IMG/VR virus record: IMGVR_UViG_3300019776_000484
Coordinates: 1-26,887 of that record
DNA from: a virus
Length of the DNA stretch: 26,887 nt
Reading direction: 5' to 3' (one strand)
Shown: positions 66-19,075 of the stretch, in pieces
Layout of the letters: the number at the start of each line of letters is the position of its first letter
How positions within the stretch are numbered: position 1 is the stretch's first letter
The notes under the pieces: model-generated
Database searches by the model: none
Told to the model about the DNA's origin: nothing
Seen by the model: only the letters and a program-made list of their open reading frames with translations
Program-made: the position numbers and the translations under genes

Positions 66-521
66 ATGAATAAAGAAGAACTTAAACGCGCTCGTATTGC
101 ATATCATTCGCAAAAGAAAGGCGCCAAAGAGCGCGGAATAGAGTGGCTTTTTACTTTTGATACCTGGCTTGAGGGATGGATCGCGTCCGGATATTGGGAG
201 TTGCGCGGACGAAACAAAGGGCAATATCAAATGTGTAGAAAAGACGATGAAGGACCATATTCGCCAGATAATATATATTACGATACTACCGAAAATAACG
301 GCCTTTTTGCTCATGAAAAACAAAAACGAAGTAAAAAATGGAATGACTATGTTGATCAACTTATAAAACAGGGGCGCCCAGGAGGATATACATCTAAAAA
401 AGTAGTTATTCATGGCATTGAATATGTTTCCGCCGTCGAAGCGGCTAAAGCACTTGGTTTGCATTGGGCAACCGTCTATAGACGTATTAAACAAGGGCGT
501 CCAGGATATCATTATATTTAA
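66..521 (+). CDS. Homing-endonuclease-like protein with C-terminal NUMOD1-like domain
   Basis: This 151-residue protein is one of four paralogues in the window. The N-terminal 80 residues carry the family signature: RGIEW, a Trp-rich helix, RGRNKGQY, then D-x-G-P-Y-S-x-x-N-I. Residues about 112-151 match a NUMOD1-type helix-turn-helix (AVEAAKALGL, then TVYRRI) and end in GYHYI. No HNH, GIY-YIG or LAGLIDADG catalytic motif is visible, although DxGPYSxxNI resembles the second half of a degenerate HNH finger. It runs against the late operon, has its own promoter and lacks a clear Shine-Dalgarno site. Its TAA is nested with the opposing gp10-like stop in the tetramer TTAA. Nuclease activity is inferred, not seen. 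Confidence 0.7.
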   Translation: MNKEELKRARIAYHSQKKGAKERGIEWLFTFDTWLEGWIASGYWELRGRNKGQYQMCRKDDEGPYSPDNIYYDTTENNGLFAHEKQKRSKKWNDYVDQLIKQGRPGGYTSKKVVIHGIEYVSAVEAAKALGLHWATVYRRIKQGRPGYHYI

Positions 522-1987
522 GCCAATCCCACTTCCACATCGAGCATGGCGCTGAGCATCTGTGTTTTTACTGGCTCTGTTACTGTTACGCGAAACACAC
601 GATCACGACTACTACCCAATCGCTGCCAGCGAGCGCGAGTATTCCAACGACCTATTTGTCCCAAACTAGCGTATATTGGATTGCTCCAAGTTTGTCCGCC
701 ATCGTTGCTTATTTCCAACACTATACGCGGATTTACACTGCTCTGCGTATTAGTGCCATTGTTTACTAAGCCAGTGCCAAACTGAAAGTCTACCTCAAAT
801 AGTTTATAGAACATTCTGTTTAAGTTCTCGCTTACATGCGGTGTTTGACGAATTCTGGCGATCATATTGCCGTTGTCTGTGTATGTGTCCAGATCTAATT
901 CATAGATGTTATTATCGGCAAAGTCACCTACAATGTGTTGATTGTTTAGCACGCAATGACAACTGCCAATATTGCGACCAGCAACTCCATCGATGGTTGT
1001 TTGACGCTCATGCCACTGCTTTACGCTCATATCATAAACCAATGTAGTGTTCATGCTGGGAATATTCAAGCAATAAAAGTAATGACCCTCTTGCTGATAT
1101 GCGTAACCAGTAGCACCACTCAAGTCCGTATATTGCTGTATGATGTACTCAATTGCGTGTGTGCTTACTCGCACAGGCATAGCATTCTCAAGCATATAAA
1201 CAACGCCACCGCCCTGTGAGTTAGTGCCAAGCCAAAAGAATGTCTCACTCAATCTGGCAATGCTATTAGGGGCAGCGCATCCAACCTGACTGAAACGACC
1301 ATCTTGTCGTTGGAATGGTGTTGTTCCACTTGCTCCGCTGTTATACCAAATCTCTGTAGTGCTGGCACCAAGCAAGTATAACTGACGATTGTTGCTGATT
1401 ACGGCAGTTAGAATATCGCTGTTGCCGCTTTTGGCTGCTTCATTTAGAGCAGGAAAGTCTATGCTGTATAAGTCACTGATAAAGAAGTATGGTGTGCCTG
1501 TACGATTTAGTATGAAGTAGCCATCTTGGAATGTCACGGTATCAGCAGGATAGAAGTTTGGATCCGTAATATTGTTGATAGCCAGATTGCCTATTGTGAT
1601 ATAGTAACCAGCCTGACCATCTACTATCAGTGCCTGTATGCCATTGTCTGCTATTTGTACTGGACCAGTGCTTGTGCTCAGTGTTCCGCTTAGTTCTGTT
1701 GGCAATCCCAATGCACCACTGATCTGATAGACTTTGTTGCCACTGACAATATAACTGATTTGCTGATTGCTAACGGTATATACTTGACGAATAGGGCCAG
1801 TGCCTATGCTTTGTAGAAACTTTAGACCAGGAGTGCCAATCAGTACTGCTGGCTCGCCCCCTTTTCCACCACCAGTTTCGTCCATCTCAATGTAATAATT
1901 GACCAGTCGCTGAGCATCAAAGCGTTTTACACGACTTTCGTATGCGGGCCCGCAAAAGCCAGGAAATCTATTTTTACGCTCCGACAT
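518..1987 (-). CDS. P22 gp10-like tail hub / packaged-DNA stabilisation protein
   Basis: The 489-residue product matches the P22 gp10 type in size (P22 gp10 is about 470) and style: N-terminal GFCGPAYESR followed by QRLVNYY, then a long beta-rich propeller-like body. In P22, gp10 forms a hexameric ring below the gp4 ring, closes the portal channel and holds the tail needle and spikes. It is the last gene of the minus-strand head-tail block, downstream of two gp4-like adaptors, which fits that role. An AAGGA ribosome site lies 8 bp before the ATG at 1987. The upstream homing-like gene overlaps its start by 14 bp. The family assignment is by recognition of the N-terminal motif, context and length. 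Confidence 0.75.
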   Translation of the reverse strand: MSERKNRFPGFCGPAYESRVKRFDAQRLVNYYIEMDETGGGKGGEPAVLIGTPGLKFLQSIGTGPIRQVYTVSNQQISYIVSGNKVYQISGALGLPTELSGTLSTSTGPVQIADNGIQALIVDGQAGYYITIGNLAINNITDPNFYPADTVTFQDGYFILNRTGTPYFFISDLYSIDFPALNEAAKSGNSDILTAVISNNRQLYLLGASTTEIWYNSGASGTTPFQRQDGRFSQVGCAAPNSIARLSETFFWLGTNSQGGGVVYMLENAMPVRVSTHAIEYIIQQYTDLSGATGYAYQQEGHYFYCLNIPSMNTTLVYDMSVKQWHERQTTIDGVAGRNIGSCHCVLNNQHIVGDFADNNIYELDLDTYTDNGNMIARIRQTPHVSENLNRMFYKLFEVDFQFGTGLVNNGTNTQSSVNPRIVLEISNDGGQTWSNPIYASLGQIGRWNTRARWQRLGSSRDRVFRVTVTEPVKTQMLSAMLDVEVGLA

Positions 1988-2483
1988 TTTGTAGTTCCTT
2001 CTTTTTTAGTTTAGCCGCCTGAGTTGCTGCTATGCGCTTAGCAATATGCTCTGGCGATTGTTTTTTACCGCGAAACGATGCTCCCATTTTCATTTTGCTT
2101 TCTTCGCTAAATGTTTGCTTTAGTCTTGCTTCACGACATTTCTCTATGGTTGCTTCATTATGTCGTTTGCCGTGGAAAGGATTATTTTCGCCGTGTCTAT
2201 CATATCCTTTGCGACCTATTTGAGCATCACGAACATTATCGCTATGTAATCTTATGCTAACATTTCCTATTTCATAATGTCCAAGATCATTATGACGCGC
2301 CATTACATAGCAATCTTCCCATATTCCGCGTTTGTCTAAACAACCTGATTGTTCCCATAAGTCAAGCCATTCTTCAAACGATAATCTAAACTCTACCTTG
2401 TTTCCGGCAGCATCTAATTTGCGACCTGAATCGCATTGATATTTTTGAGTAGCATAGGCTTTTTTTAGTAATTTTAGATCCAT
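1974..2483 (-). CDS. Homing-endonuclease-like protein with NUMOD3-like repeats
   Basis: The 169-residue paralogue shares the N-terminal module of the family: a Trp-rich helix (EEWLDLW), RG, YVMARHNDLGHYEIGNV. It differs in the C-terminal half, where two NUMOD3-like units appear (NNPFHGKRHNEAT and RGKKQSPEHIAKR) in place of NUMOD1. NUMOD3 units bind DNA in the linker regions of homing endonucleases. The start at 2483 was chosen because GGAGA sits 6-10 bp upstream. An earlier in-frame ATG at 2540 overlaps the preceding stop as ATGA and would add 19 residues that do not belong to the family. It is inserted between the 64-residue gene and the gp10-like gene and overlaps the latter by 14 bp. Catalysis is unproven. 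Confidence 0.7.
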   Translation of the reverse strand: MDLKLLKKAYATQKYQCDSGRKLDAAGNKVEFRLSFEEWLDLWEQSGCLDKRGIWEDCYVMARHNDLGHYEIGNVSIRLHSDNVRDAQIGRKGYDRHGENNPFHGKRHNEATIEKCREARLKQTFSEESKMKMGASFRGKKQSPEHIAKRIAATQAAKLKKKELQNVGA

Positions 2484-2536
2484 ATTTTTCTCCAGTATGA
2501 ATCTATTTATATACGCTGGGTCTATGCCTACAAAAC

Positions 2537-2731
2537 TCATCTTTGTCGCTCCATTGTGTCGTTTGTTGAATTGTGCTTATATCCAGCATCGGTTAGCAAC
2601 TTTACGCTTAAATTCTCTGCTTTTATTTGACGGCCAGGAATACGATCCTGCTTACTCATAACAGCCATAGTACGCATATTGCGTTCGTATATGTATTGAC
2701 TATAGTTTTTTGGAGTTGGAATATCAATCAT
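2537..2731 (-). CDS. Small protein of unknown function, coupled to the gp4-like gene
   Basis: The 64-residue hydrophilic, basic product has no recognised domain. Its ATG lies 1 bp after the TAA of the upstream adaptor gene, and no good ribosome site is seen, so translation is probably coupled. Its TGA overlaps an in-frame ATG at 2540. Its position between the gp4-like adaptor and the gp10-like hub suggests a small neck or assembly protein, but that is only context. A longer frame reaching 2803 overlaps the adaptor and was not preferred. Confidence 0.55.
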   Translation of the reverse strand: MIDIPTPKNYSQYIYERNMRTMAVMSKQDRIPGRQIKAENLSVKLLTDAGYKHNSTNDTMERQR

Positions 2732-2732
2732 G

Positions 2733-3503
2733 TTAGTTTGGTATTGTTGTGGCAAGATTGTAATTATATACGCCTGGTCCTGGTGCGCTGATTGCGATAT
2801 CACCGCGTGTAATCTGACTTCTTACATTCAGACGCTTCAGTGAAGCATAACTTTCATCAGCAATTCTCAATACATCAGGCGCTGGTACTTTACCGAATTC
2901 GGCACTGAGTTCTACGGCAAGATTAAAGCGTAGTGCTCGTTCATATCCGCGTGGCAAATTCAACTGATCATCCAATGTGGCATATGTTCCAAGTGGTTGC
3001 CATGTCCATACGGTCATTGGCTGTGATGTAGTAGGCACTGGCCATAGACTAATAGTGCGTAATGGATAGTTGCCATTATCGTAAAACTTTAGCGCATATG
3101 TAGCAGGCTGATCCTTTACAGGGATAGCGGCATATTGTGCGTCAGTCAGCGTCTCTAATGGAATATCAATGGTTGTTTGACTATTAACCAATGAATACAA
3201 GCCAGTGCTGGGATTGTAAGTCAAACTTCCGTTATAACTCACAGTCATGCGCTCTACACTCATTGGACGCTCTAAATTCCAGTTACCGCCGCTGCCTAAT
3301 GTGTAGTTCTTTTGACCTGCCGTAGTTGGAAAATAGTATGGTTTCAGCACATAAATGGATAGTTTATCAGTGCTCCAACTATCAACCATGGCATCCAACG
3401 CAATCAGCGAGATATCCATGTCGGCCGCAGTGGCCACTTCGTTTTGCTGTATGACATTGATTAGTCTCAATGCGCCAGTGATTAGTTCGCGTGTAGTGCT
3501 CAT
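2733..3503 (-). CDS. gp4-like head-tail adaptor, second paralogue
   Basis: The 256-residue protein starts RELITGALRLINV and continues with an alpha-helical adaptor fold pattern (ALDAMVDSWSTDKL, later GYERALRFNLAVELSAEFG). This is the pattern of P22 gp4-type tail accessory factors, which ring the base of the portal; gp4 of P22 is shorter, about 166 residues. It is clearly homologous to the protein at 3983-4732: 35 of the first 60 residues are identical in a gapless hand alignment. Its ATG overlaps the stop of the homing-like gene (ATGA), so the two adaptors are separated by that gene. Having two such adaptors is unusual; one may form a second ring or be diverging. Confidence 0.7.
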   Translation of the reverse strand: MSTTRELITGALRLINVIQQNEVATAADMDISLIALDAMVDSWSTDKLSIYVLKPYYFPTTAGQKNYTLGSGGNWNLERPMSVERMTVSYNGSLTYNPSTGLYSLVNSQTTIDIPLETLTDAQYAAIPVKDQPATYALKFYDNGNYPLRTISLWPVPTTSQPMTVWTWQPLGTYATLDDQLNLPRGYERALRFNLAVELSAEFGKVPAPDVLRIADESYASLKRLNVRSQITRGDIAISAPGPGVYNYNLATTIPN

Positions 3504-3967
3504 AAGTATTCGTAGCCCTGTATATTATTGCGTAGGCGTTTTTTACACAGACTATATCCTATGCCAATTGCCTTAGCGGCGTCTTTAATACAATCATAAG
3601 TTTGACCATGTATTTTTACTTTTCGCGCAGCAGGATTATTGCTTCCGGATATTCTTTTGCTTATAGTGTTTCTAGTTATAACGCTGTGTTTCCGGCCAAT
3701 ATTATATGTGTTTCCGACATGGGCTTCACGAATATTTACTCCATGTAATTTGGCCTCTATGTTGCCTAATTCATATGCTCCTTGATCGCCATATCTGGCC
3801 ATTACATATTTGCCTTTGCCGCGCCCGCGAAGATGATATACTCCAGTCTCTAGCCACCAATTGATCCATTCATCATATGTTAGTTTCCATTCAATACCTC
3901 TCTTATCAGCCATATGTCGTTGCTGGCTAAAACTTACTCTTGCTTTTCTAATTTGTTCTTTTGTCAT
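3500..3967 (-). CDS. Homing-endonuclease-like protein with C-terminal NUMOD1-like domain
   Basis: The 155-residue paralogue has RGIEWKLTYDEWINWW, RGRGKGKYVMAR and DQGAYELGNI in the N-terminal module, then a NUMOD1-like tail (DCIKDAAKAIGIGYSLC) ending GYEYL. The ATG at 3967 was chosen because the protein then begins MTKEQIRKAR, aligning with MNKEELKRAR of the paralogue at 66. The ATG at 3976 would add three residues, and neither start has a strong ribosome site. It sits exactly between the two gp4-like paralogues and overlaps the second by 4 bp. No classical nuclease motif is seen, so the homing role is inferred from the NUMOD tail, the repeated intergenic placement and the strong paralogy. 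Confidence 0.7.
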   Translation of the reverse strand: MTKEQIRKARVSFSQQRHMADKRGIEWKLTYDEWINWWLETGVYHLRGRGKGKYVMARYGDQGAYELGNIEAKLHGVNIREAHVGNTYNIGRKHSVITRNTISKRISGSNNPAARKVKIHGQTYDCIKDAAKAIGIGYSLCKKRLRNNIQGYEYL

Positions 3968-3982
3968 AGTAAGCATAGTATA

Positions 3983-4732
3983 TCACATATTTGAAGGGAT
4001 TGTATCCCCCGTAACGTAGTTCCAAAGTGCCGTCTTATCACTGGCTATAGCAATGTCACCAGCCATAATCTGAGGCTGGCTGTTTAGTCGTTTTATTGTT
4101 GCCATACTGTTTCTGGCGATCTTACGCACGGTGTCTGGCACTTCTTTACCAAATTCACTGGCCAATTCAATTGCCAATGCGAAACGCAGTGCGCGTTCAT
4201 AGCCCTTTGGAAAGTTTACTGGATCGTCAATAGTGGCTGGATCGATCAGTGGTTGAAATAACCATAATTGCGCTGGAAATATGCGTTGTGGTATTGGCCA
4301 AACATAGATTGTGCGTAGAGGATTGTTGCCATCATCGTAGAACTTCAAGGGAAATCTGGCAGTGACTCCTTTGACTCCAATAGCAGACCACTGTTCCATA
4401 GTCAGTTTCTCCATTGGTAGATCTACGGTGGTTGGTGCTGGGCCAACTCCATCTACATTGGGATATCTAACATACATTGATATCACTTCCATTGGTCTTA
4501 CAACATTCCAATCGCCACCAGGGCCAAGTGTGTATTTGGCTTGATTTGGTACAAAGGCAAACTCATATGGATTGATGCTGTAGATATAGAGTCTGTCAGT
4601 ACTCCAACTTTGTAGCATACTGTTCAATGCCTCAAACGACACATTCATATCGTCAGCAGTAGGTGTTTCATTGGCTTGTACGACATTGATTAGTCGTAGA
4701 CTGCCAGTTATAAGGTCGCGTATTGTAGCCAT
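3983..4732 (-). CDS. gp4-like head-tail adaptor, first paralogue
   Basis: The 249-residue protein has the same layout as its paralogue at 2733-3503: RDLITGSLRLINVVQ, FEALNSMLQSWSTDRLYIY, LKFYDDGNNPLRTIYVWPIP and GYERALRFALAIELASEFG. It is placed just after the coat and head-decoration genes, where gp4-type tail accessory factors sit in P22-like phages. The ATG at 4732 aligns with the paralogue start. An ATG at 4747 would add five residues and lies right at the foot of a terminator-like hairpin. The 3' end is followed 16 bp later by the homing-like gene. The gp4 assignment rests on helix pattern and synteny; the head-tail connector role is likely. Confidence 0.7.
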   Translation of the reverse strand: MATIRDLITGSLRLINVVQANETPTADDMNVSFEALNSMLQSWSTDRLYIYSINPYEFAFVPNQAKYTLGPGGDWNVVRPMEVISMYVRYPNVDGVGPAPTTVDLPMEKLTMEQWSAIGVKGVTARFPLKFYDDGNNPLRTIYVWPIPQRIFPAQLWLFQPLIDPATIDDPVNFPKGYERALRFALAIELASEFGKEVPDTVRKIARNSMATIKRLNSQPQIMAGDIAIASDKTALWNYVTGDTIPSNM

Positions 4733-4750
4733 AATAGTATTTAGCATAAA

Positions 4751-4779
4751 GCCCCTATGGGCTTGTGACCCATAGAGGC
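4751..4779 (-). terminator. Terminator-like hairpin after the coat and head-protein genes
   Basis: On the minus strand an 11-bp stem (GCCTCTATGGG / CCCATAGGGGC, one G-U pair) with a 7-nt loop is followed by TTTAT. The U-tract is short, so termination may be partial, which would lower adaptor expression relative to coat. Confidence 0.5.
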
Positions 4780-4801
4780 TACTATAATCAACTGTGATTG
4801 A

Positions 4802-5080
4802 TTATTCTGCGATTAGACCTAGTTGCTTTAGTGCGCGAACTAGATCGCCAACGGTGTAAGCAGTACTGCCAACTCCGCCAGTCCATACGCTATCGCTTTT
4901 GCTTGCTGTACCACTGCCGGCAGCAAAGCCAGCAACGTTGCCAGTTGTGTCAAACTGAGCGATACCAGTGGCTCCATAGAAGCCTAGAGTTTGAGTTGTT
5001 ACTTCGCCAACAACGATACCGCTGGTGTTGCCACCAGTACTGGTTGGGTTGCTGGATACTTCAATATTTGGTGCGGCCAT
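4802..5080 (-). CDS. Small head decoration or head-fibre-like protein
   Basis: The 92-residue protein is rich in Gly, Thr and Ser, and ends in a short amphipathic helix (YTVGDLVRALKQLGLIA). That helix after a Gly/Ser/Thr-rich stretch is typical of small capsid-associated or head-fibre proteins found directly after coat genes; I recognise the pattern, not a specific family. An AAAGGA ribosome site precedes the ATG. It lies between the coat and adaptor genes and is followed by a terminator-like hairpin, consistent with high-level co-expression with coat. It could also be a fibre trimerisation or decoration trimer; function is inferred from position. Confidence 0.6.
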   Translation of the reverse strand: MAAPNIEVSSNPTSTGGNTSGIVVGEVTTQTLGFYGATGIAQFDTTGNVAGFAAGSGTASKSDSVWTGGVGSTAYTVGDLVRALKQLGLIAE

Positions 5081-5108
5081 TTTGTTTATTCCTTTGTGTT
5101 AGATTAGT

Positions 5109-5132
5109 TAGGGAGACTGTTACATCTCCCTA
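5109..5132. other. Perfect 8-bp hairpin between coat and small head gene
   Basis: TAGGGAGA at 5109-5116 and TCTCCCTA at 5125-5132 form a perfect stem with an 8-nt loop. There is no T-run on either side, so it is not a standard terminator. It might be an RNA processing or stability element downstream of the coat gene. Confidence 0.4.
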
Positions 5133-5141
5133 TAGCCCATA

Positions 5142-6329
5142 TTAAGATGTAGCGATACGGCAAGCAAGTTGCTCGTACAGTGTGTTGAATCCGAATAGAA
5201 CGTCGAAACGAGTGATCCACTGATCGGTTACAACGCTGTAATCACGGATGATACGAACTGATACGCCAGTTTGTGGATCGGTAGCGCGGAAAGCGCGGTC
5301 GGTACCACCAGGAACATCTAGTTCTGCTACGCCCATAACGAATGCGTCTGGGTGATAGGCAACGCTCAACTGAGTTGATACGCCACTAGCACCAGCGATT
5401 GTTAGATTTGCGCTATCAGCAGGTCCAGCACTTACGCTCTGGAATGCGCCACTTGTTACGATGGCTGGGCTGATGCTCATAGCACCTACACCAGTACGAT
5501 TGACTAGAACAACAAACTGCTGAGGAACACCTAGATCCTGTTTGGTCTGTGGGTTTACAGCGTTAACACCAGCGATGGTGAATACTGTACCAGCAGTTAG
5601 TGTGCCAGTTAGGCCTTTGATGACTAGTGTGCTACCAGTTTGACCAGCACCGTCAACCTGAATAGTACCGCTGAATGTTCCATTAGCGTGAGCAGGAATA
5701 TTCTGATCCATATACCATTCAAAGCCTAGAGCCTGAGCAAGTTGACCCTTTCTGTACTGAGCACTGATCTCTGGCTGTGGGTTGAACAGGTTCAGACCTA
5801 GGCCAGTAGCAACGGCTTGAGTATTTGGGTCAGCAACAAACTTCCATGTTCCATCACGAGGAGCAAGGTTCTGGTCTAGTTTAACACCGGCTTGTAGATA
5901 GGTGCTTAGACTGTTAACTGCTGAACCTGGTGATCCAACTTGGTTATAAACCTTGCTTAGATATGATAGACCATAAGCATCCATACGGTTGGCGATCTGT
6001 GCCATGGCAGGCTTGATAACGCGATCCGAATACATATCTAGACTTAGTGTCTGCTCTTGTGAGGTGAATGACAGGTCAACGCCATACTGCTCACTTAGAG
6101 TCAAAGGAACATAAGTTTCGGTTTGTGCTTCGATGTTCACTACAGGGCCAGTACGACCTACATAGCGAGCGGGTTTTCTGATATTGATGGTTTGGCCGAT
6201 CTTGGCTCCCTTGATGGCAAACTCATCGTTGTATCCTTGATTTACATTGGTCATGAACTTTAGTGAGCCGGTTAGCACACGAAGTGACTCTTGTGTAATC
6301 ATGGATATCGTTAGTAGTTGATTAGACAT
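5142..6329 (-). CDS. Major coat protein, P22 gp5 type
   Basis: The 395-residue protein starts with an N-arm (TQESLRVLTGSLKFM), then INIRKPARYVGRTGPVV and VDLSFTSQEQTLSLDMYSD, features of P22-type HK97-fold coat proteins. Between roughly residues 210 and 320 a Gly/Thr-rich beta segment with TVFTIAGVNAVNPQTKQ resembles the inserted I-domain of P22 coat. The C-terminal part ends in a short helix with LYEQLACRI. It follows the scaffold gene by 24 bp and has an AAAGGA ribosome site. It self-assembles on scaffold around the portal to form the procapsid. Length is close to P22 coat (430). Confidence 0.85.
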   Translation of the reverse strand: MSNQLLTISMITQESLRVLTGSLKFMTNVNQGYNDEFAIKGAKIGQTINIRKPARYVGRTGPVVNIEAQTETYVPLTLSEQYGVDLSFTSQEQTLSLDMYSDRVIKPAMAQIANRMDAYGLSYLSKVYNQVGSPGSAVNSLSTYLQAGVKLDQNLAPRDGTWKFVADPNTQAVATGLGLNLFNPQPEISAQYRKGQLAQALGFEWYMDQNIPAHANGTFSGTIQVDGAGQTGSTLVIKGLTGTLTAGTVFTIAGVNAVNPQTKQDLGVPQQFVVLVNRTGVGAMSISPAIVTSGAFQSVSAGPADSANLTIAGASGVSTQLSVAYHPDAFVMGVAELDVPGGTDRAFRATDPQTGVSVRIIRDYSVVTDQWITRFDVLFGFNTLYEQLACRIATS

Positions 6330-6353
6330 TTTTGATTATCCTTTAATGATAGT

Positions 6354-7253
6354 TTATTTGCGCTTAAGTGTTGCTTCGCGTCGTTTCAACCAGTCAGTAT
6401 AACTCAGATTTGGGTCACTAAGATCGTTGCTTTCGACTTTACCTGTGCCTTTTACTGGCTTTACTGGCGCTGGAGCAGCACTAATTTTCTTTGTCTCTGG
6501 AGCAGGCGCAGTCTGCTTCGGAGCGCGTACTTTGTCTTCTAATTTGCCTAGTTCAATATAACGTCGGCGTGGTGGTAACTTAGCAAGTGTGTCAATAATC
6601 TCTGGATTCTGAGCAATATAATATGCCATATTTGGCCCAACATCGCTTTCCATTGCGACTTCTAACACTTCCGGAATGTTGAGATCGCCATAGTCTGCTA
6701 CAAACTCACTCATTACTGCGTCAAAATCAGGCACGGTTTGCTTGAATTGACTAAGACGCTGCTCGTAAGTGTTAGCCACAGTCGCGAACTGTGTTTGTTG
6801 CTGAACTTGCGATAGTGCGCCATTGAGTTTCCAGTCTGTAAGAGCGTCGGTGTATGCCTCTATGTCATTATAATCAGAGAACTTTGGTTTTCCTTGTGGC
6901 TGTGGTGCTGATTGTGGCTCCGCTGGCTGTCCAAGTGCTACCCTCTTCCAGTATTCGATTTCCGCCTCTTTGGCGCTCAATTTCTGGTTGAATTTCTCGA
7001 TTCTGCGTTCGAATCCACGCTTTGGCTTGCGTTCGTTCTCACCTTCACCTACATCTTCGCCTGCTTCGTCAGTGCTGGCAGCAGTGGTTTCGGTGACTCC
7101 CTCTGCGTTTGTATCAGTTGCCGATTCTGATTCCACATTTGCTGTGGTTTCGCCACGATCTACTTCCACTGACTCTGAAGCGGTTGTTTCTGTAGCAGGT
7201 GCGGCTGTTTCCGCTGATGCGGGACTACCATTAATTGGGAATTGACCAAACAT
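6354..7253 (-). CDS. Capsid scaffold protein
   Basis: The 299-residue protein has a disordered acidic Ala/Thr/Glu-rich N-terminus (residues 1-70), a charged coiled-coil segment (about 75-110, FERRIEKFNQKLSAKEAEIEYW), an alpha-helical middle and a basic C-terminal helix (WLKRREATLKRK). In P22 the basic C-terminal helix-turn-helix of gp8 binds coat, and the protein leaves the procapsid during packaging. Its position directly before coat and after portal, and its charge pattern, fit a scaffold. An AAAGGA site precedes the ATG. The portal operon is separated from this gene by an opposing HNH gene. Confidence 0.8.
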   Translation of the reverse strand: MFGQFPINGSPASAETAAPATETTASESVEVDRGETTANVESESATDTNAEGVTETTAASTDEAGEDVGEGENERKPKRGFERRIEKFNQKLSAKEAEIEYWKRVALGQPAEPQSAPQPQGKPKFSDYNDIEAYTDALTDWKLNGALSQVQQQTQFATVANTYEQRLSQFKQTVPDFDAVMSEFVADYGDLNIPEVLEVAMESDVGPNMAYYIAQNPEIIDTLAKLPPRRRYIELGKLEDKVRAPKQTAPAPETKKISAAPAPVKPVKGTGKVESNDLSDPNLSYTDWLKRREATLKRK

Positions 7254-7332
7254 GTATTATCCTTTTGTTTGTAGTTGTACCTGGTTATAGGTGCCAGTAT
7301 CCTGTGTTGTATTTATGCTACAGCCAAAATAT

Positions 7333-7361
7333 TTGACGATAATTGAATTAAGCCTTATAAT
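7333..7361 (+). promoter_or_regulatory. Sigma-70 promoter for HNH-AP2 gene
   Basis: TTGACG at 7333-7338 and TATAAT at 7356-7361 are spaced by 17 bp. The predicted start of transcription is near 7368, about 44 bp before the ATG at 7412. The promoter belongs to the inserted plus-strand gene, not to the surrounding minus-strand operon. Confidence 0.75.
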
Positions 7362-7367
7362 CTTTAT

Positions 7368-7390
7368 ATGTTGCTGATGGGCAGCAGCAT
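7368..7390 (+). promoter_or_regulatory. 5'-end hairpin of the HNH-AP2 transcript
   Basis: ATGTTGCTG at 7368-7376 and CAGCAGCAT at 7382-7390 form a 9-bp stem with one G-U pair and a 5-nt loop. It starts at the predicted first nucleotide of the mRNA, where such hairpins are known to protect transcripts from decay. Confidence 0.45.
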
Positions 7391-7411
7391 AACTCAACAT
7401 AAGGAACTGTT

Positions 7412-7882
7412 ATGCAAAATTGGAATGAAATATTTGATTATAAAGACGGTGAATTATATTGGAAGCGTACTTTCGGACAGCGTGCCAAAGCAGGATCTCA
7501 GGCTGGGTACATTAGATCCGATGGCTATAAAGTGATTGCATATGAAAAACGAATCTATAAAGCGCATAGAATCATATGGGAAATGCATAATTGGCCTATT
7601 CCCTCAAACAAAGAAATAGATCATAAAGATCAAAACAAATCTAATAATCGTATCGACAATTTGCGTTGTTGTTCTCACGCGCAAAATGCACAAAATCCTA
7701 AATTATCTGTCAAAAACACTTCAGGTCATCGCGGAGTAATGTGGTACAAACCTCTTCAAAAATGGGCCGCATATATTAGACGTGATGGAAAACGAAAGCA
7801 TTTAGGATATTTTGATGATATCAATGACGCTATAGCCGCGAGACTAAAAGCGGAGCATGAAATTGGTTGGAATCAGTTCTAG
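7412..7882 (+). CDS. HNH homing endonuclease with AP2 DNA-binding domain
   Basis: The 156-residue protein has an HNH_3-type core: H52 in YKAHRIIWEMHN, D70-H71 in EIDHKDQN, N79 and N83 in NNRIDNLR. An AP2 domain follows at about residues 104-150 (SGHRGVMWYKP, then HLGYFDDINDAIAAR). This architecture is standard for freestanding phage homing endonucleases. It lies antisense within the portal-scaffold operon, with its own promoter and an AAGGA ribosome site. Its TAG overlaps the stop of the opposing 49-residue gene in the tetramer CTAG. It is closely related to the protein at 18599-19075. All expected catalytic residues are present, so it is probably active. Confidence 0.9.
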   Translation: MQNWNEIFDYKDGELYWKRTFGQRAKAGSQAGYIRSDGYKVIAYEKRIYKAHRIIWEMHNWPIPSNKEIDHKDQNKSNNRIDNLRCCSHAQNAQNPKLSVKNTSGHRGVMWYKPLQKWAAYIRRDGKRKHLGYFDDINDAIAARLKAEHEIGWNQF

Positions 7883-8028
7883 CCAGTATCGCGATCATTG
7901 ATTACGGGATGCTTGGCCAACAATATTTCTATGTCGGCTATAGCATCCCTTGCGCCATGATAATCGCGTTGCTCAAGCATTAACATCAAATATTGCCACA
8001 TTATTTGAAATTGCCGCTGCGGAGTCAT
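7879..8028 (-). CDS. 49-residue protein translationally coupled to portal
   Basis: This short frame was read by hand. Its ATG (8026-8028) shares its A with the TGA of the portal gene (TGATG), the classic arrangement for coupled translation. The product has an N-terminal helix (FQIMWQYLMLMLEQ) and a second helix with the pattern DYHGARDAIADIEILLAKHP. Small phage proteins with an analogous 'D-[WY]-H-G-x-x-D-A-A-x-D' stretch are common, but their function is unknown to me. It probably belongs to the portal-scaffold operon and was the original neighbour of the scaffold gene before the HNH gene was inserted. Confidence 0.65.
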   Translation of the reverse strand: MTPQRQFQIMWQYLMLMLEQRDYHGARDAIADIEILLAKHPVINDRDTG

Positions 8029-10175
8029 CAGATTCCCGTGGCACTGGCTTTAAGATCACTTGGCTGCGCTACATCGATGGCGTCGAACCTGGCTGCTTCT
8101 TTGTCCAACTCTTTGTCGATTTTGTCCATGCCGGCAACTGCAAGTTTTGCTTGTTCCAACTTAAGTTGCTCTTTCTGAATCAGTACTTCTTGCTCCTTGA
8201 TTAAGAAATCCAATTCATATTTCTTAGCGTCAAGGCTATACTCTTCACGACGAAGTTCAGCATCAAGTGTCGCCTTGTTCAACTCAATATCGCCCTTCAT
8301 TTTGCTTAACTTAAGTTCGTCTTTGGTGCGCTCCAATTCGCCCTCAACTTGAGCAGCATGAGCATTCAGTGCTTCCAATGCTTGAACGTTCTGCTTGAGT
8401 TTAGCCTGTAGCGTCTGGATCATTGCCTCAGCATTTTCTGGATCGATCTCTTCTTCACTGCTCATCAGTACTTCTGGCGGCACTGCGGCGCGTAATCTCT
8501 TAGCAATCTGTTTGGCGCCATCAAAACTCATTTCTTGTACGACTAAGTCGCTGATTAGTGGTGCGGCTTGTGGATAAACAGTCATAAGCGTCATTGACTT
8601 ATCTACCATTTCCTGACGCTGTGTTGAGTATCCAGGGCCAGTCTGAACAACTACATCATAGCGTCCAGCAGTAAGATCGATGATCTTGCCATTCTTATCC
8701 ATACCATTGATCAACACCAATTCTTGATCATCGTTTGGCTTGACAATGCGTATAGTTCTGGTTGTATCATAGTAGAATGGAATGATATCCACTAGCATGC
8801 GTCCAAGTTGTCTGATGGTTCTGACCAGATTGTCGTAGTAGTGATAATTGCTGATTCCTGTTTGCTCTTTGCGAGCCATAATTGCAATACCACTGGTTTC
8901 ATTGCTCTGTGCGCCTAGACTAGCGTCAAATACGCCAAAGATAGCCTTGATATCTTCTACGCTCTGCATCTTGGTCTGCTGTACAGCGGCAATAGGTGCT
9001 TCTACTGCATTACGAACTGGCGGTGGTGCTGGATTGCCATTGATATCAGTAGGATTGTATTCCAAGTAACCGAAGTTCTTACGATTAGCATCACGCCAAT
9101 TGTCCTCAAATGTGTCGAACTGCCCTGCTGCTCCAATGTATGGCGCTTTGGCATTTAGGTCAATGATTTCTGCTTGTAGGCTGGCAGTGAAGTTGATCAT
9201 CTTCTGTGCGTCTTTTGCTCTACGCACGGCTCCACATTTATAACGCTTGCCATCGACAAAATAGTCTTCGCCGTACACTGGCAGTACCGGAATGAACTTA
9301 CCTGGCCATACGCTGCTGTCTAATATCTCGGTGCCAGTCATCAAACACCATACTATCTGCGTTTCCAGTGTAGGACGCTTGTTTAGTATAACCAACAGCC
9401 CTGCGTCAAGTGTCTCTTCTGGTGGTTTATCAGTAGTTGTATAGATCTGACCAGTGATATTATCGCGTACTTGATATAGTGTCTTCTCGACATGCTCTTT
9501 GTAGTAGTATTCAGCAACTCTAATATTGTTCTGTGTGATCCAACTGGCATCGTACTCATTGAAGTTTTGCCATCCGCCTAAGTCCTCAACTTGCTGACTT
9601 AGTTTAGCATTGGGATATCTATGTTGGAACTCTGTCTTTGGTACGCTATCAACAATGAATGCCCAGTTGCAATCGCTGCCATCGCCTTGAACACTGTTTG
9701 GATCGTAAAACACATTCATTGGATCAGCCACTGCTTCGATGCGTAGTACTTGGTCAAATGTATTATCATCTTCGTATTCACTGCGAACGCGAATATAACC
9801 AATTCCTCCAGCAGCAGCGTACCAACCTGCTCTATCGTAAGCACTATCAGCGGCACTATCATACTCGATTGCTCTGATCAGTCCTTGCATAGTGTTGGCC
9901 ACGATATCGGTAGCGCCATCGCCCTTAGGCAGCACTTCAATGCGTGGTTTGTTCATACGCTGTTCGTTAACAATCTGACGCAATGCTGGATTGATACGAT
10001 CCATAGTCATACATGGACGGCCACTTTCTGTACGCTGCTGTCTTGCCAAACCGGTCCATTGGTCATCACTAATGAACTCCAAGTCTTCTTTAAACTTCAT
10101 TCTGAACTCGTTATCGGCGTCTTCGGCGATCTTAAATCTATCCAGCGCCATTTGTATTACTTTTTTTTCGTCCAT
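8028..10175 (-). CDS. Portal protein, P22 gp1 type
   Basis: The 715-residue protein (P22 gp1 is 725) starts with a helical clip/wing region containing FISDDQWTGLARQQRTESGRPCMTMDR-type sequence; the stretch DDQW...RPCMT(M/I)NR-like and INPALRQIVNEQR is typical of P22-like portals. The last 120 residues are a long charged coiled coil (QAKLKQNVQALEALNAHAAQ onward), equivalent to the P22 barrel and crown region. The dodecameric portal is the DNA entry channel and terminase docking site. The start at 10175 was chosen for the AGGA 9-12 bp upstream; an earlier TTG-type frame start runs into the adjacent gene. Terminase is upstream, separated by a homing-like gene. Confidence 0.9.
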   Translation of the reverse strand: MDEKKVIQMALDRFKIAEDADNEFRMKFKEDLEFISDDQWTGLARQQRTESGRPCMTMDRINPALRQIVNEQRMNKPRIEVLPKGDGATDIVANTMQGLIRAIEYDSAADSAYDRAGWYAAAGGIGYIRVRSEYEDDNTFDQVLRIEAVADPMNVFYDPNSVQGDGSDCNWAFIVDSVPKTEFQHRYPNAKLSQQVEDLGGWQNFNEYDASWITQNNIRVAEYYYKEHVEKTLYQVRDNITGQIYTTTDKPPEETLDAGLLVILNKRPTLETQIVWCLMTGTEILDSSVWPGKFIPVLPVYGEDYFVDGKRYKCGAVRRAKDAQKMINFTASLQAEIIDLNAKAPYIGAAGQFDTFEDNWRDANRKNFGYLEYNPTDINGNPAPPPVRNAVEAPIAAVQQTKMQSVEDIKAIFGVFDASLGAQSNETSGIAIMARKEQTGISNYHYYDNLVRTIRQLGRMLVDIIPFYYDTTRTIRIVKPNDDQELVLINGMDKNGKIIDLTAGRYDVVVQTGPGYSTQRQEMVDKSMTLMTVYPQAAPLISDLVVQEMSFDGAKQIAKRLRAAVPPEVLMSSEEEIDPENAEAMIQTLQAKLKQNVQALEALNAHAAQVEGELERTKDELKLSKMKGDIELNKATLDAELRREEYSLDAKKYELDFLIKEQEVLIQKEQLKLEQAKLAVAGMDKIDKELDKEAARFDAIDVAQPSDLKASATGI

Positions 10176-10200
10176 AGTGATTTTCCTGGTTATATTGTAT

Positions 10201-10641
10201 TTATATGTATTCGTAGCCTGGCACACCGTGATCAATGCGCCATGCGATAGTTGCTCGGGGTATCGATAGTTGTCTGCTGGCATTAGCCATACCTGGATAC
10301 GATACGCCCAATATCTTTACTGGCCTGCCCTTATCTTTATTATGCACGGTGTAATGCTTTGCTATGCCCTTTTGGCGCATGCCTGGCAGTCTGCTATTAT
10401 TGTCGGTGAGATCGCAGTATATATTGGATAGTGAGTATGGTCCAGTATCACCGTGCCGGCACATAACATATTGACCTTTATATTTGCCTCTATTGTTTAT
10501 TTGACCAGTGCTTTCCCACCAGTTTAGCCATTCTTCCCATGTAAGTTGCCATTCTATGCCGCGCTTTTTTGCTCCGCTGCGTTGCTCCTGAAATGCGCGC
10601 CAATATTTGTAAGTTTGTTCGTCCATTGTATTCTTTTTCAT
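10201..10641 (-). CDS. Homing-endonuclease-like protein with C-terminal NUMOD1-like domain
   Basis: The 146-residue paralogue carries RSGAKKRGIEWQLTWEEW, NNRGKYKGQYVMCRHGD and TGPYSLSNIYCD in the N-terminal module. A gapless 60-residue alignment to the protein at 66-521 gives 34 identities by hand. The tail is NUMOD1-like (GMANASRQLSIPRATIAWRI) and ends GYEYI. The ATG at 10641 follows a GAGGG ribosome site that itself overlaps the large terminase stop. A second ATG lies five codons later. It is inserted between terminase and portal, two genes that are normally adjacent. No catalytic motif of a known homing class is visible. Confidence 0.7.
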   Translation of the reverse strand: MKKNTMDEQTYKYWRAFQEQRSGAKKRGIEWQLTWEEWLNWWESTGQINNRGKYKGQYVMCRHGDTGPYSLSNIYCDLTDNNSRLPGMRQKGIAKHYTVHNKDKGRPVKILGVSYPGMANASRQLSIPRATIAWRIDHGVPGYEYI

Positions 10642-10651
10642 AGTGTTTCCC

Positions 10652-12088
10652 TCATAGTATGTTGCCACTATTAGGAGTATACACTTTTGCTTTCTTCGAG
10701 ACGATGTATTCTGGCTTAGCGACATCTCTGCCCATCATTGCGTATCTGATTGCGTCCATTATGTGATCATTGACCTTGATGACTTTACCCCGCTCGTCTC
10801 TACGGTATAATCTATATTCGTTCCAAAAGTTTGTAAGGTCGGTGAATATTTTCAGTTGACCGCTGCTCAGCAGTTCCCATACGGTGAATAATCCTGTTTC
10901 CACCGCTTTGTCGGCATCATTGAGTTTCAGTCCCAAATCTTTATACATCTGCATAAGATTGTCGCCATCGATCTGACTACGCCCACGAGCGGCAGTATCG
11001 ATAATGCCTGGTATCCAATCTCCGCGTGCTCTGATAGTAGAAGCATGATTACTGGGCTCTGCTTCGCCCTTATAGTATTCGCTATACGCGTACCATATGT
11101 TAGTATTGGGATCCTGTGCTAACCATATTGCTGCGGTTTTATTCCATCCTACATCTAAGCCGTATAGTTTCTTCCAACTCTTTGGAATATCAAATCTATC
11201 TACTGCTACTTCACTCTCTGGTATTGGATAGATGGCACCAGCACCAAGTTGTGGTATGCCCTTTGTTCTGGCATCTCGCTGAAATGGCGGTATGCTGGCT
11301 AACAGTATCTTTTTGTCTGCTGCTGTTAAGTGTGGGACATCATCCCATCCAGCCATGACTACATACTTGCCTTCGCCTACTGGACCTTCGTGAAACTGCG
11401 ATCCTTCCAAGAAGTTTAAGATAGTATCACTAATGCCCTTCAGTGGTGTAAAGGTCATCATCAGCATATTGTTGCCTGTTGCTGTACGCAATAAGCACTC
11501 GGTGAATATACTTAGTGGTGGTTCTTCGTCTAACCATATGCTGCGTTCAGTGCCCTCAAAACTGGTTCTGCCTGCGTCATATGCTTTAAACTCTACGTTA
11601 CTGTAGCCACCACTACTATGTTTTACACGGAACACAGTGACGCCAGTGTCTGCTTTCTTTGCGTCTTTTAGTGTGTCAAAGTCCAAGCATTCTTTTGGAA
11701 TCATGCCTGTACCGAACTCTCCTACTGAACCAAGTAATGTGTTCTGTAAGATGGATAATATTGTTCTGCTGTCTTTACCGCATACCCACCAACTGCTTGG
11801 ACCTGTATTTCTGCGACCAATCCACCAATCTGGATATTGACCTGTTAGATGACAAGTGAGTTCATATGCTGCTGCCAATGTTTTGCCCACACGATTGGCT
11901 GCCATGAACAATCGCAGTTTGTAGTCTGTTCCTGCCTTAAAGAACTCTGTGTGTTTTGGATACAGTTCGCGGCGTGTATCGCCAGTGTCGCTAAAATAAC
12001 TACGAATGCGTCTGTTATTTTGTCTGCGTTCGCGTTCTTCCAATAGGGCAATCAACTGTAATGCTTCACTTCTGCTCAGTGGTTTCAT
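10652..12088 (-). CDS. terL: Terminase large subunit
   Basis: The 478-residue protein has an ATPase domain with Walker A ANRVGKT (residues 64-70) and Walker B IWLDEE (184-189), a coupling region (MMTFTPLKG, 210-218), and an RNase H-like nuclease domain with likely metal ligands D312 (YGLDVGW), D364 (IIDTAARGR) and D445 (NDHIMDAIRY). It packages concatemeric DNA through the portal and cuts it. Length fits P22 gp2-type terminases (499). The small subunit gene overlaps its start by 23 bp. Its TGA overlaps the ribosome site of the following homing-like gene. All motifs look intact. Confidence 0.95.
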   Translation of the reverse strand: MKPLSRSEALQLIALLEERERRQNNRRIRSYFSDTGDTRRELYPKHTEFFKAGTDYKLRLFMAANRVGKTLAAAYELTCHLTGQYPDWWIGRRNTGPSSWWVCGKDSRTILSILQNTLLGSVGEFGTGMIPKECLDFDTLKDAKKADTGVTVFRVKHSSGGYSNVEFKAYDAGRTSFEGTERSIWLDEEPPLSIFTECLLRTATGNNMLMMTFTPLKGISDTILNFLEGSQFHEGPVGEGKYVVMAGWDDVPHLTAADKKILLASIPPFQRDARTKGIPQLGAGAIYPIPESEVAVDRFDIPKSWKKLYGLDVGWNKTAAIWLAQDPNTNIWYAYSEYYKGEAEPSNHASTIRARGDWIPGIIDTAARGRSQIDGDNLMQMYKDLGLKLNDADKAVETGLFTVWELLSSGQLKIFTDLTNFWNEYRLYRRDERGKVIKVNDHIMDAIRYAMMGRDVAKPEYIVSKKAKVYTPNSGNIL

Positions 12089-17428: not shown

Positions 17429-17713
17429 ATGGAACTACAAAGACGAGGACGCGGACGACCAAAGGGCTACAAGGTCACCGACGAAACCAAACAAAAAATC
17501 AAAAACACAAGTGCCAGAACAGTATCAATCGCTGTAACCACACCAGATGGCCACTTTCCCAGTTTGCGTGCTGCTGGATTATATTACAATCTAACATCAA
17601 GCAGTATTGCTCACAGATGTAAAACTGGAGCACGACAGCGCAGTGAGGGCTATAGTGAGACAGACAGCGTAAAGGATTACAGAGGATGGTTTGCCGCACG
17701 GATCACAATCTAA
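17429..17713 (+). CDS. Standalone NUMOD/AT-hook DNA-binding protein
   Basis: The 94-residue basic protein starts with an AT-hook-like RRGRGRPKGY, then a NUMOD3-like helix (VTDETKQKIKNT), then a NUMOD1-like unit (PDGHFPSLRAAGLYYNLTSS, then IAHRCK). These modules normally sit at the ends of homing endonucleases, but here there is no nuclease domain. It is the first gene of the rightward operon, next to palindromes in the divergent control region, so it could be a regulator built from homing-enzyme parts, or a remnant. A TAGGAG ribosome site precedes it. Confidence 0.7.
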   Translation: MELQRRGRGRPKGYKVTDETKQKIKNTSARTVSIAVTTPDGHFPSLRAAGLYYNLTSSSIAHRCKTGARQRSEGYSETDSVKDYRGWFAARITI

Positions 17714-18424: not shown

Positions 18425-18606
18425 TGCCTAAAAAAGAGATATATCAAGACGAAAAGACTGGCTTATATTTGGAGCGAGAAGTAAAATTTGAGAAACGCGA
18501 GAAAATGAGCAGGCAGGAATGGCGCTGCTATTTTGCAGACGAAGAAATTTCGGAGCAAGAGTTCCGTGACGAATACGCCAAATATAAGAGGCCTTTAGAT
18601 GCATAA
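18424..18606 (+). CDS. Small charged protein of unknown function
   Basis: The 60-residue protein is rich in Lys, Glu and Arg (EREVKFEKREKMSRQEWRCY, then SEQEFRDEYAKYKR). It appears to be a strand followed by helices, with no recognised domain. Its ATG overlaps the previous stop as TAATG, and AAGGAG lies just upstream. The HNH-AP2 gene begins inside its last codons, indicating insertion at or near its 3' end. Confidence 0.65.
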   Translation: MPKKEIYQDEKTGLYLEREVKFEKREKMSRQEWRCYFADEEISEQEFRDEYAKYKRPLDA

Positions 18607-19075
18607 AGTAATAGATTGGAACGAAATCTTTGTATACAAAGACGGTGATCTATACTGGAAAGAAACTAAAGGCAATGCAAAAAAAGGATCAAAAGCAGGA
18701 TATTTGCATCATACTGGATATGTTTGTGTAGGCTATCAAGGCAAATCATATAGAATACATCGAATTATATGGGAGATGCATAACTGGCCTATCCCGTCTA
18801 ACAAACATATAGATCATGCTGATAGAAATAAGACAAATAATCGCATAGAAAATTTGCGTTGTTGTTCTCATGCTCAAAATGCTCAAAATATGAAACTTCA
18901 TGTAAAGAACATATCTGGACATCGCGGGGTAACTTGGTATAAACCATATGAAAAATGGAATGCTTATATTATGGATAATAATAAACGAAAACATCTTGGA
19001 TATTTTGATGATGTCAATGACGCAATCGCTGCCCGCAAAGCAGCAGAACAACAATTACAATGGAATCAATACTAA
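18599..19075 (+). CDS. HNH homing endonuclease with AP2 DNA-binding domain
   Basis: The 158-residue protein is a close paralogue of the one at 7412-7882, with H54 (YRIHRIIWEMHN), D72-H73 (HIDHADRN), N80/N81 and the identical run NLRCCSHAQNAQN. The AP2 part (SGHRGVTWYKP, HLGYFDDVNDAIAAR) is retained. It overlaps the upstream gene by 8 bp and the downstream one as TAATG, so it relies on operon transcription, unlike its paralogue with a private promoter. All catalytic residues are present. It probably spread as a mobile gene between phage loci. Confidence 0.9.
   Translation: MHKVIDWNEIFVYKDGDLYWKETKGNAKKGSKAGYLHHTGYVCVGYQGKSYRIHRIIWEMHNWPIPSNKHIDHADRNKTNNRIENLRCCSHAQNAQNMKLHVKNISGHRGVTWYKPYEKWNAYIMDNNKRKHLGYFDDVNDAIAARKAAEQQLQWNQY

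Follow-up and report, generated by a model that had tools for sequence, protein, structure and literature searches.

Four homing-type genes in a P22-like head block share a predicted HNH-derived module with arginine at the general-base position

The window analysed here, the whole of a 26.9-kb IMG/VR virus record, carries a P22-like head block with genes for the large terminase subunit (terL), portal, a scaffold-like protein, the P22 coat, two paralogous head-completion-like proteins (adaptA and adaptB) and the stabilisation protein. No close relative of it was found among 50,697 phage records. Four further ORFs, hom1 to hom4, are all present where a sequence-only reading had placed them. The relevant features are:

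66..521, + strand, hom1: N-module (residues ~5-85) and NUMOD1/I-TevI-type HTH tail
518..1987, - strand, P22-type phage stabilisation protein (PF11134), flanking host gene
1974..2540, - strand, hom2: N-module and two NUMOD3 stretches
2733..3503, - strand, adaptB, flanking host gene, paralogue of adaptA
3500..3976, - strand, hom3: N-module, NUMOD3 and beta-hairpin/HTH tail
3983..4747, - strand, adaptA, flanking host gene
7412..7882, + strand, canonical HNH_3 + AP2 homing-type gene, unrelated, H-N-N intact, used as contrast
8028..10283, - strand, P22-like portal, flanking host gene
10201..10725, - strand, hom4: N-module and I-TevI-like tail
10396..10470, - strand, putative cryptic HNH core of hom4, YVMCRHGDTGPYSLSNIYCDLTDNN; residues 58-82 counted from start 10641
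10652..12088, - strand, terminase large subunit, flanking host gene
18599..19075, + strand, second canonical HNH_3 + AP2 homing-type gene

In-frame starts further upstream are possible for hom2 (2540, upstream of 2483), hom3 (3976, upstream of 3967) and hom4 (10725, upstream of 10641); for hom4 the true start is probably 10641, and that of the portal gene probably lies near 10181. As had been proposed, the four ORFs share an N-terminal module of ~85 residues, recognised both by BLASTP and by matches to PHROG 16521. With E values scaled to a 60-Mresidue database, BLASTP joins hom1 to hom4 (2e-27), hom3 to hom4 (1e-25), hom1 to hom3 (5e-22), hom2 to hom3 (7e-13) and hom2 to hom4 (2e-11), leaving hom1/hom2 as the sole pair that is weak on its own (0.1). 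All four proteins match PHROG 16521 at E 1e-14 to 1e-29, hom1 at 3e-29 and hom2 at 9e-15. The 34 identities in 60 residues counted by gapless alignment of the first and fourth proteins proved exact, and lie between residues 19-78 of hom1 and 23-82 of hom4. The idea that a single gene was duplicated locally to give all four is rejected: monophyly of the window copies fails the AU test (p 0.0001), suggesting that they were acquired separately. Otherwise the tree of the module family is poorly resolved.

The C-terminal tails are DNA-binding elements of the types found in homing enzymes (NUMOD, I-TevI, HTH). They had been described as NUMOD1-like in three proteins and NUMOD3-like in one, which holds except for hom3, whose tail carries both NUMOD3 and a NUMOD1/I-TevI-type element. 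The tail of hom2 consists of two NUMOD3 stretches, that of hom1 matches the I-TevI_DNA-bd and HTH models below the Pfam cut-off, and that of hom4, which has no Pfam match, aligns over its whole length with the tails of hom1 and hom3. Across the family the tails vary between NUMOD3, I-TevI/NUMOD1-like and HTH types. AP2-like tails were also recognised by eye in contigs L013 and L034, the latter matching PHROG 99 at E 0.001. Elsewhere in the window, a 94-aa ORF at 17429-17713 resembles a NUMOD3/NUMOD1 tail (Pfam E 0.08) without a nuclease domain, and is possibly a homing-gene remnant.

Identification of the flanking genes confirmed that each hom gene lies at a gene boundary. hom1 is convergent with the 3' end of the stabilisation-protein gene, which it overlaps by 4 nt, while hom2 lies between that gene and a small ORF. 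hom3 separates the two tandem paralogues adaptB and adaptA, and hom4 occupies the terL/portal junction. Across the module family the median gap to neighbouring ORFs is 3 nt, and virion structural genes make up most of the neighbours that could be recognised. The genes at 7412-7882 and 18599-19075 are related to each other, bringing the window to six homing-type genes within 27 kb.

The module had been reported to lack any HNH, GIY-YIG, LAGLIDADG or similar signature, and this stands insofar as the nuclease models of Pfam and NCBIfam gave no match to it. A search of the module against PDB sequences found no nuclease, and its match to PvuII (E 0.38) is at chance level. The module contains no GIY or YIG motif, matched no GIY-YIG model and has no CxxC motif. 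Structure prediction and fold comparison had been suggested earlier as a check. The AF2 model of the module is confident (pLDDT 91, pTM 0.79) and has the order helix-helix-beta-loop-beta-helix, the beta-beta-alpha fold being a feature of the predicted model only. In a Foldseek search of 350,542 PDB chains the best match was the HNH enzyme PacI (probability 0.63, E 0.5), the next scoring 0.04 or less; no EDxHD/VSR or PD-(D/E)XK fold was found among the PDB matches. The full-length hom3 model matched the I-TevI DNA-binding domain (probability 1.00), PacI (0.69) and I-HmuI (0.44), with everything beyond these three at 0.08 or less. In BFVD, the module fold is matched at E about 0.05-0.2 by several T4-like proteins labelled 'anti-sigma factor' and by 'Zn-finger' proteins of giant viruses; hom4 has a match at E 0.26 to PHROG 4592, 'decoy of host sigma70'.

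In hom4 the core is predicted to run beta1, loop, beta2 and helix, and contains R62, D65, G67, Y69, N73 and N82. Eleven columns (W, W, R, G, M, R, D, G, Y, N and N) are at least 99% conserved among 95 non-redundant sequences. The position of the first His of HNH, the general base, is Arg in 94 of the 95 and His in one. The canonical metal-binding Asp before that Arg is absent from all 95, nearly all of which have Ala, Ser or Cys instead, and an invariant Asp lies three residues after the Arg. This +3 Asp is a candidate replacement for the lost metal ligand. The central Asn (N73, 95/95) and the last Asn (N82, 94/94) are 9 residues apart, as in HNH. Y69 is invariant and aligns with Y100 of PacI; at position 58, 91% of the sequences have Tyr and 8% have Leu. 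In pairs with measurable dS, dN/dS is 0.03-0.15, indicating purifying selection on the module.

Profile searches, also suggested earlier, join the module to two groups of phage HNH proteins, the 'DRIDNDGNY' (DRID) family and relatives of PacI. hhalign aligned the module with the DRID family at E 4.5e-5, a value reached by none of 200 column-shuffled profiles, and with a profile of PacI and five phage relatives at E 3e-4 over 69 columns (0/150 shuffles). The PacI sequence used is identical to that of PDB 3ldy, and some of the five relatives are labelled homing endonuclease or NUMOD1 protein. On its own, the PacI sequence gave no significant match to the module, the six-member profile being needed. 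Direct comparison with an HNH_3 set was not significant (probability 6), so the link runs via the DRID and PacI-like families. When 7,470 ORFs were searched with the module HMM, the sub-threshold matches were almost all of the DRID family, and the DRID HMM returned module members together with two genuine D-H type HNH proteins. Entire modules are matched by PHROG 3118, annotated 'HNH endonuclease' (E 2.8e-5 and 5.5e-4). For a DRID protein, comparison with the PHROG HNH families gave E values of 1e-50 to 1e-12, and 3e-4 with PHROG 4578, which also matches the true HNH_3 proteins of the window at E 1e-31 or better. Four positions, R0, Y+7, N+11 and N/Q+20, are conserved in both the module (99-100% of 95) and the DRID family and are present in PacI. 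At the level of sequence profiles, homology to accepted HNH families is beyond chance, and the module very probably has HNH ancestry.

PacI (R.PacI, PDB 3ldy/3m7k) is the best PDB fold match, has Arg at the first-His position and carries R, Y, N and N at identical spacing. It differs from the module in being a restriction enzyme with two Cys4 zinc sites and in retaining an Asp ahead of the Arg. In PacI a Tyr acts as general base, and Asp and Asn are metal ligands (PMC4081073). Since PacI cuts with a Tyr base, having Arg in place of the His need not make a domain inactive, although the loss of the Asp takes the module further than PacI. The DRIDNDGNYxPxNCRWAT family (PHROG 374/3377/8790) shares the frame RGI...W...G...R-x4-G-x-Y-x3-N-x8-N/Q, but keeps D or E before the Arg, usually has Q for the last N and differs in its N-terminal part. 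The HNH_3 homing endonucleases (those of the window and I-HmuI) resemble the module genes in joining HNH to a homing-type tail, in gene-boundary location and in the 9-residue spacing of central and last Asn, whereas their His general base and DH pair are intact. Among GIY-YIG freestanding homing genes (Seg proteins, I-TevI), the I-TevI-like tail is shared (Foldseek probability 1.00), and SegB occupies the same tRNA-cluster niche as the family (PMC2988022), but the catalytic domain of the family is not GIY-YIG. F-CphI (DHHRN family, Endo VII motif) is likewise a freestanding phage homing enzyme with a beta-beta-alpha-metal fold, outside the classic six families (PMC6083498); its Endo VII-type DHxH and CxxC are absent from the module.

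The module corresponds to PHROG 16521, listed with function unknown and with no fold or mobility given. A first viral scan of IMG/VR yielded 46 loci; in a second, confirmed places numbered at least 202. The collection scan used a 12-row subset, the 38-row alignment being too diverse, and because the scans rely on conserved peptide patterns the family counts are lower bounds. Searches with tblastn found members in 76 phage records, mostly T4-like, labelled 'hypothetical' or 'HNH endonuclease'. Among 84,980 prokaryotic species genomes a match turned up in a single one, that of Paraburkholderia xenovorans; this copy is probably in a prophage, as its protein is identical to that of the 53-kb viral contig L013.

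Members of the family occupy sites that are empty in relatives. In Aeromonas phage 31, whose protein matches PHROG 16521 at E 1e-71, the gene (L215 2501-2968) sits between tRNA-Asn and tRNA-Tyr. Phages 44RR2.8t (44RR) and L9-6 have no family gene there, and in 44RR the two tRNAs adjoin; the flanks of Aeromonas phage 31 are 98.9-100% identical to those of 44RR, and for L9-6 the identity on the Tyr side is 99.4%. Apart from a short leader, the insert in phage 31 is essentially just the ORF. One tRNA gap further, 44RR carries 44RRORF121c (L216 1845-2399), T5orf172/GIY-YIG-like by eye and absent from L9-6, making it another optional gene. Family copies also lie within the tRNA clusters of T2, Lutter and Citrobacter phage Ursula. 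The T2 copy (trna.1, L213 2550-2951) is short, and its tblastn match is divided in two and begins upstream of the start as annotated, which suggests that its 5' end is broken; a longer, intact counterpart exists in phage vB_EcoM_Lutter, at L223 1471-1953. The T4 tRNA cluster carries SegB (PMC2988022), and both structural genes and tRNA clusters are known homing-gene hot spots (PMC10448857, PMC2988022).

Contig L132 provides the corresponding comparison for the window, to which its portal, terL and coat are 62%, 74% and 81% identical. The hom2 and hom3 sites are empty in L132 and the genes abut there, adaptA and adaptB meeting at the hom3 site. The terL/portal junction of L131 and L132 holds a family gene 42% identical to hom4; a tree test of orthology between hom4 and the L132 gene neither favoured nor rejected it (AU p 0.38). 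L132 has an extra family gene after its coat gene, on the opposite strand, an insert that the window lacks. The paralogues at 2733-3503 and 3983-4747 are about 50% identical across copies, and their duplication also occurs in L132, so it is either older than the hom3 insertion or the site was lost there. In these comparisons, family genes are optional insertions at gene junctions with otherwise matching flanks. The suggestion that they spread as freestanding homing genes is supported by these empty sites, by the interchangeable DNA-binding tails and by the scattered phylogeny, and there is little doubt that the family consists of homing elements.

We propose, with a probability of about 0.7, that hom1 to hom4 belong to a single phage family of freestanding homing endonuclease genes, whose N-module is an Arg-type, zinc-less HNH domain that cleaves insert-less DNA. 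The N-module would be a beta-beta-alpha-metal HNH domain in which, as in PacI and the DRID proteins, Arg occupies the place of the general-base His, and in which the metal-binding Asp before the Arg was additionally swapped for Ala, Ser or Cys. The C-terminal tail, whether NUMOD3, NUMOD1/I-TevI-like or HTH, would bind an extended target sequence within the adjoining essential gene of the insert-less phage. The N-module would then nick or cut the insert-less genome at that target, and repair by recombination from the insert-bearing genome would copy the gene into the junction (intronless homing). Family membership, predicted fold, remote homology, modular tails, optional insertion and purifying selection come from comparison; from these we infer DNA cleavage, the participation of R62, D65, Y69, N73 and N82, and the position of the target. 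The module probably retains catalysis. That the family forms a distinct and widespread class of homing endonuclease, with an HNH-derived site that dispenses with the His base and the usual Asp and uses Arg62, a relocated Asp65, Tyr69 and Asn82, is a more tentative proposal, to which we give slightly less than an even chance.

With the general-base His missing from 94 of 95 members and the canonical Asp from all, the domain could instead be a dead nuclease, an HNH kept for binding DNA or protein. The hom genes would then be passengers of other endonucleases, such as the canonical HNH_3 enzymes encoded in the same window, or regulators, a role that HTH tails could serve. We regard this as unlikely. 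Eleven columns conserved to at least 99% in 95 diverse sequences, together with low dN/dS, indicate that the module does something; PacI, with Arg at the His position, still cuts by means of its Tyr base (PMC4081073); and the Aeromonas insert is the family gene alone and contains no other nuclease gene.

Two other explanations are far less probable. The sequence-only reading had offered a degenerate HNH or a new nuclease fold; the first is favoured here, as the module appears to be distantly related to HNH domains of the Arg type, PacI among them, yet the match is not to an established HNH family with all its catalytic residues, the first His and preceding Asp being absent. A novel fold unrelated to HNH would account for the lack of Pfam, NCBIfam and PDB-sequence matches, but the structure matches, and the homology of profiles that align in exact register with the DRID and PacI-like HNHs, make it very improbable. 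Equally improbable is that the proteins serve in the virion or in packaging and that their genes lie among head genes by chance. Their position within the head block would fit, and a terminase-adjacent HNH protein assists cos cleavage in HK97 according to a discussion in PMC10448857; against this stand their optional presence, the tRNA-cluster locations in T-even and Aeromonas phages, the opposite orientation at some sites and the DNA-binding tails, and nothing found in the analysis points to a virion role.

The PHROG itself and the HNH and NUMOD architectures were already known. No published description of PHROG 16521 or its family was found in the open-access literature; as far as that literature shows, the functional and structural assignment of the family and the His-less, Asp-shifted HNH core are new. 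Hundreds of 'hypothetical' phage genes can now be recognised as homing genes, including an ORF of T-even and Aeromonas tRNA clusters that varies between close relatives. HNH_3 (D-H), the DRID and PacI-like proteins (D-R) and the PHROG 16521 family (A/S/C-R) form a natural series in which one can ask how a beta-beta-alpha nuclease copes when its general base is lost.

Contig L012 (39.8 kb; locus 5534-6274) carries a family member together with a DRID-type HNH gene. In the window, a ~40-nt intergenic repeat occurs in five copies between 13789 and 15228, ahead of several small ORFs; on the - strand it reads, by eye, as a near-perfect sigma-70 promoter (TTGACA-17 nt-TATAAT).
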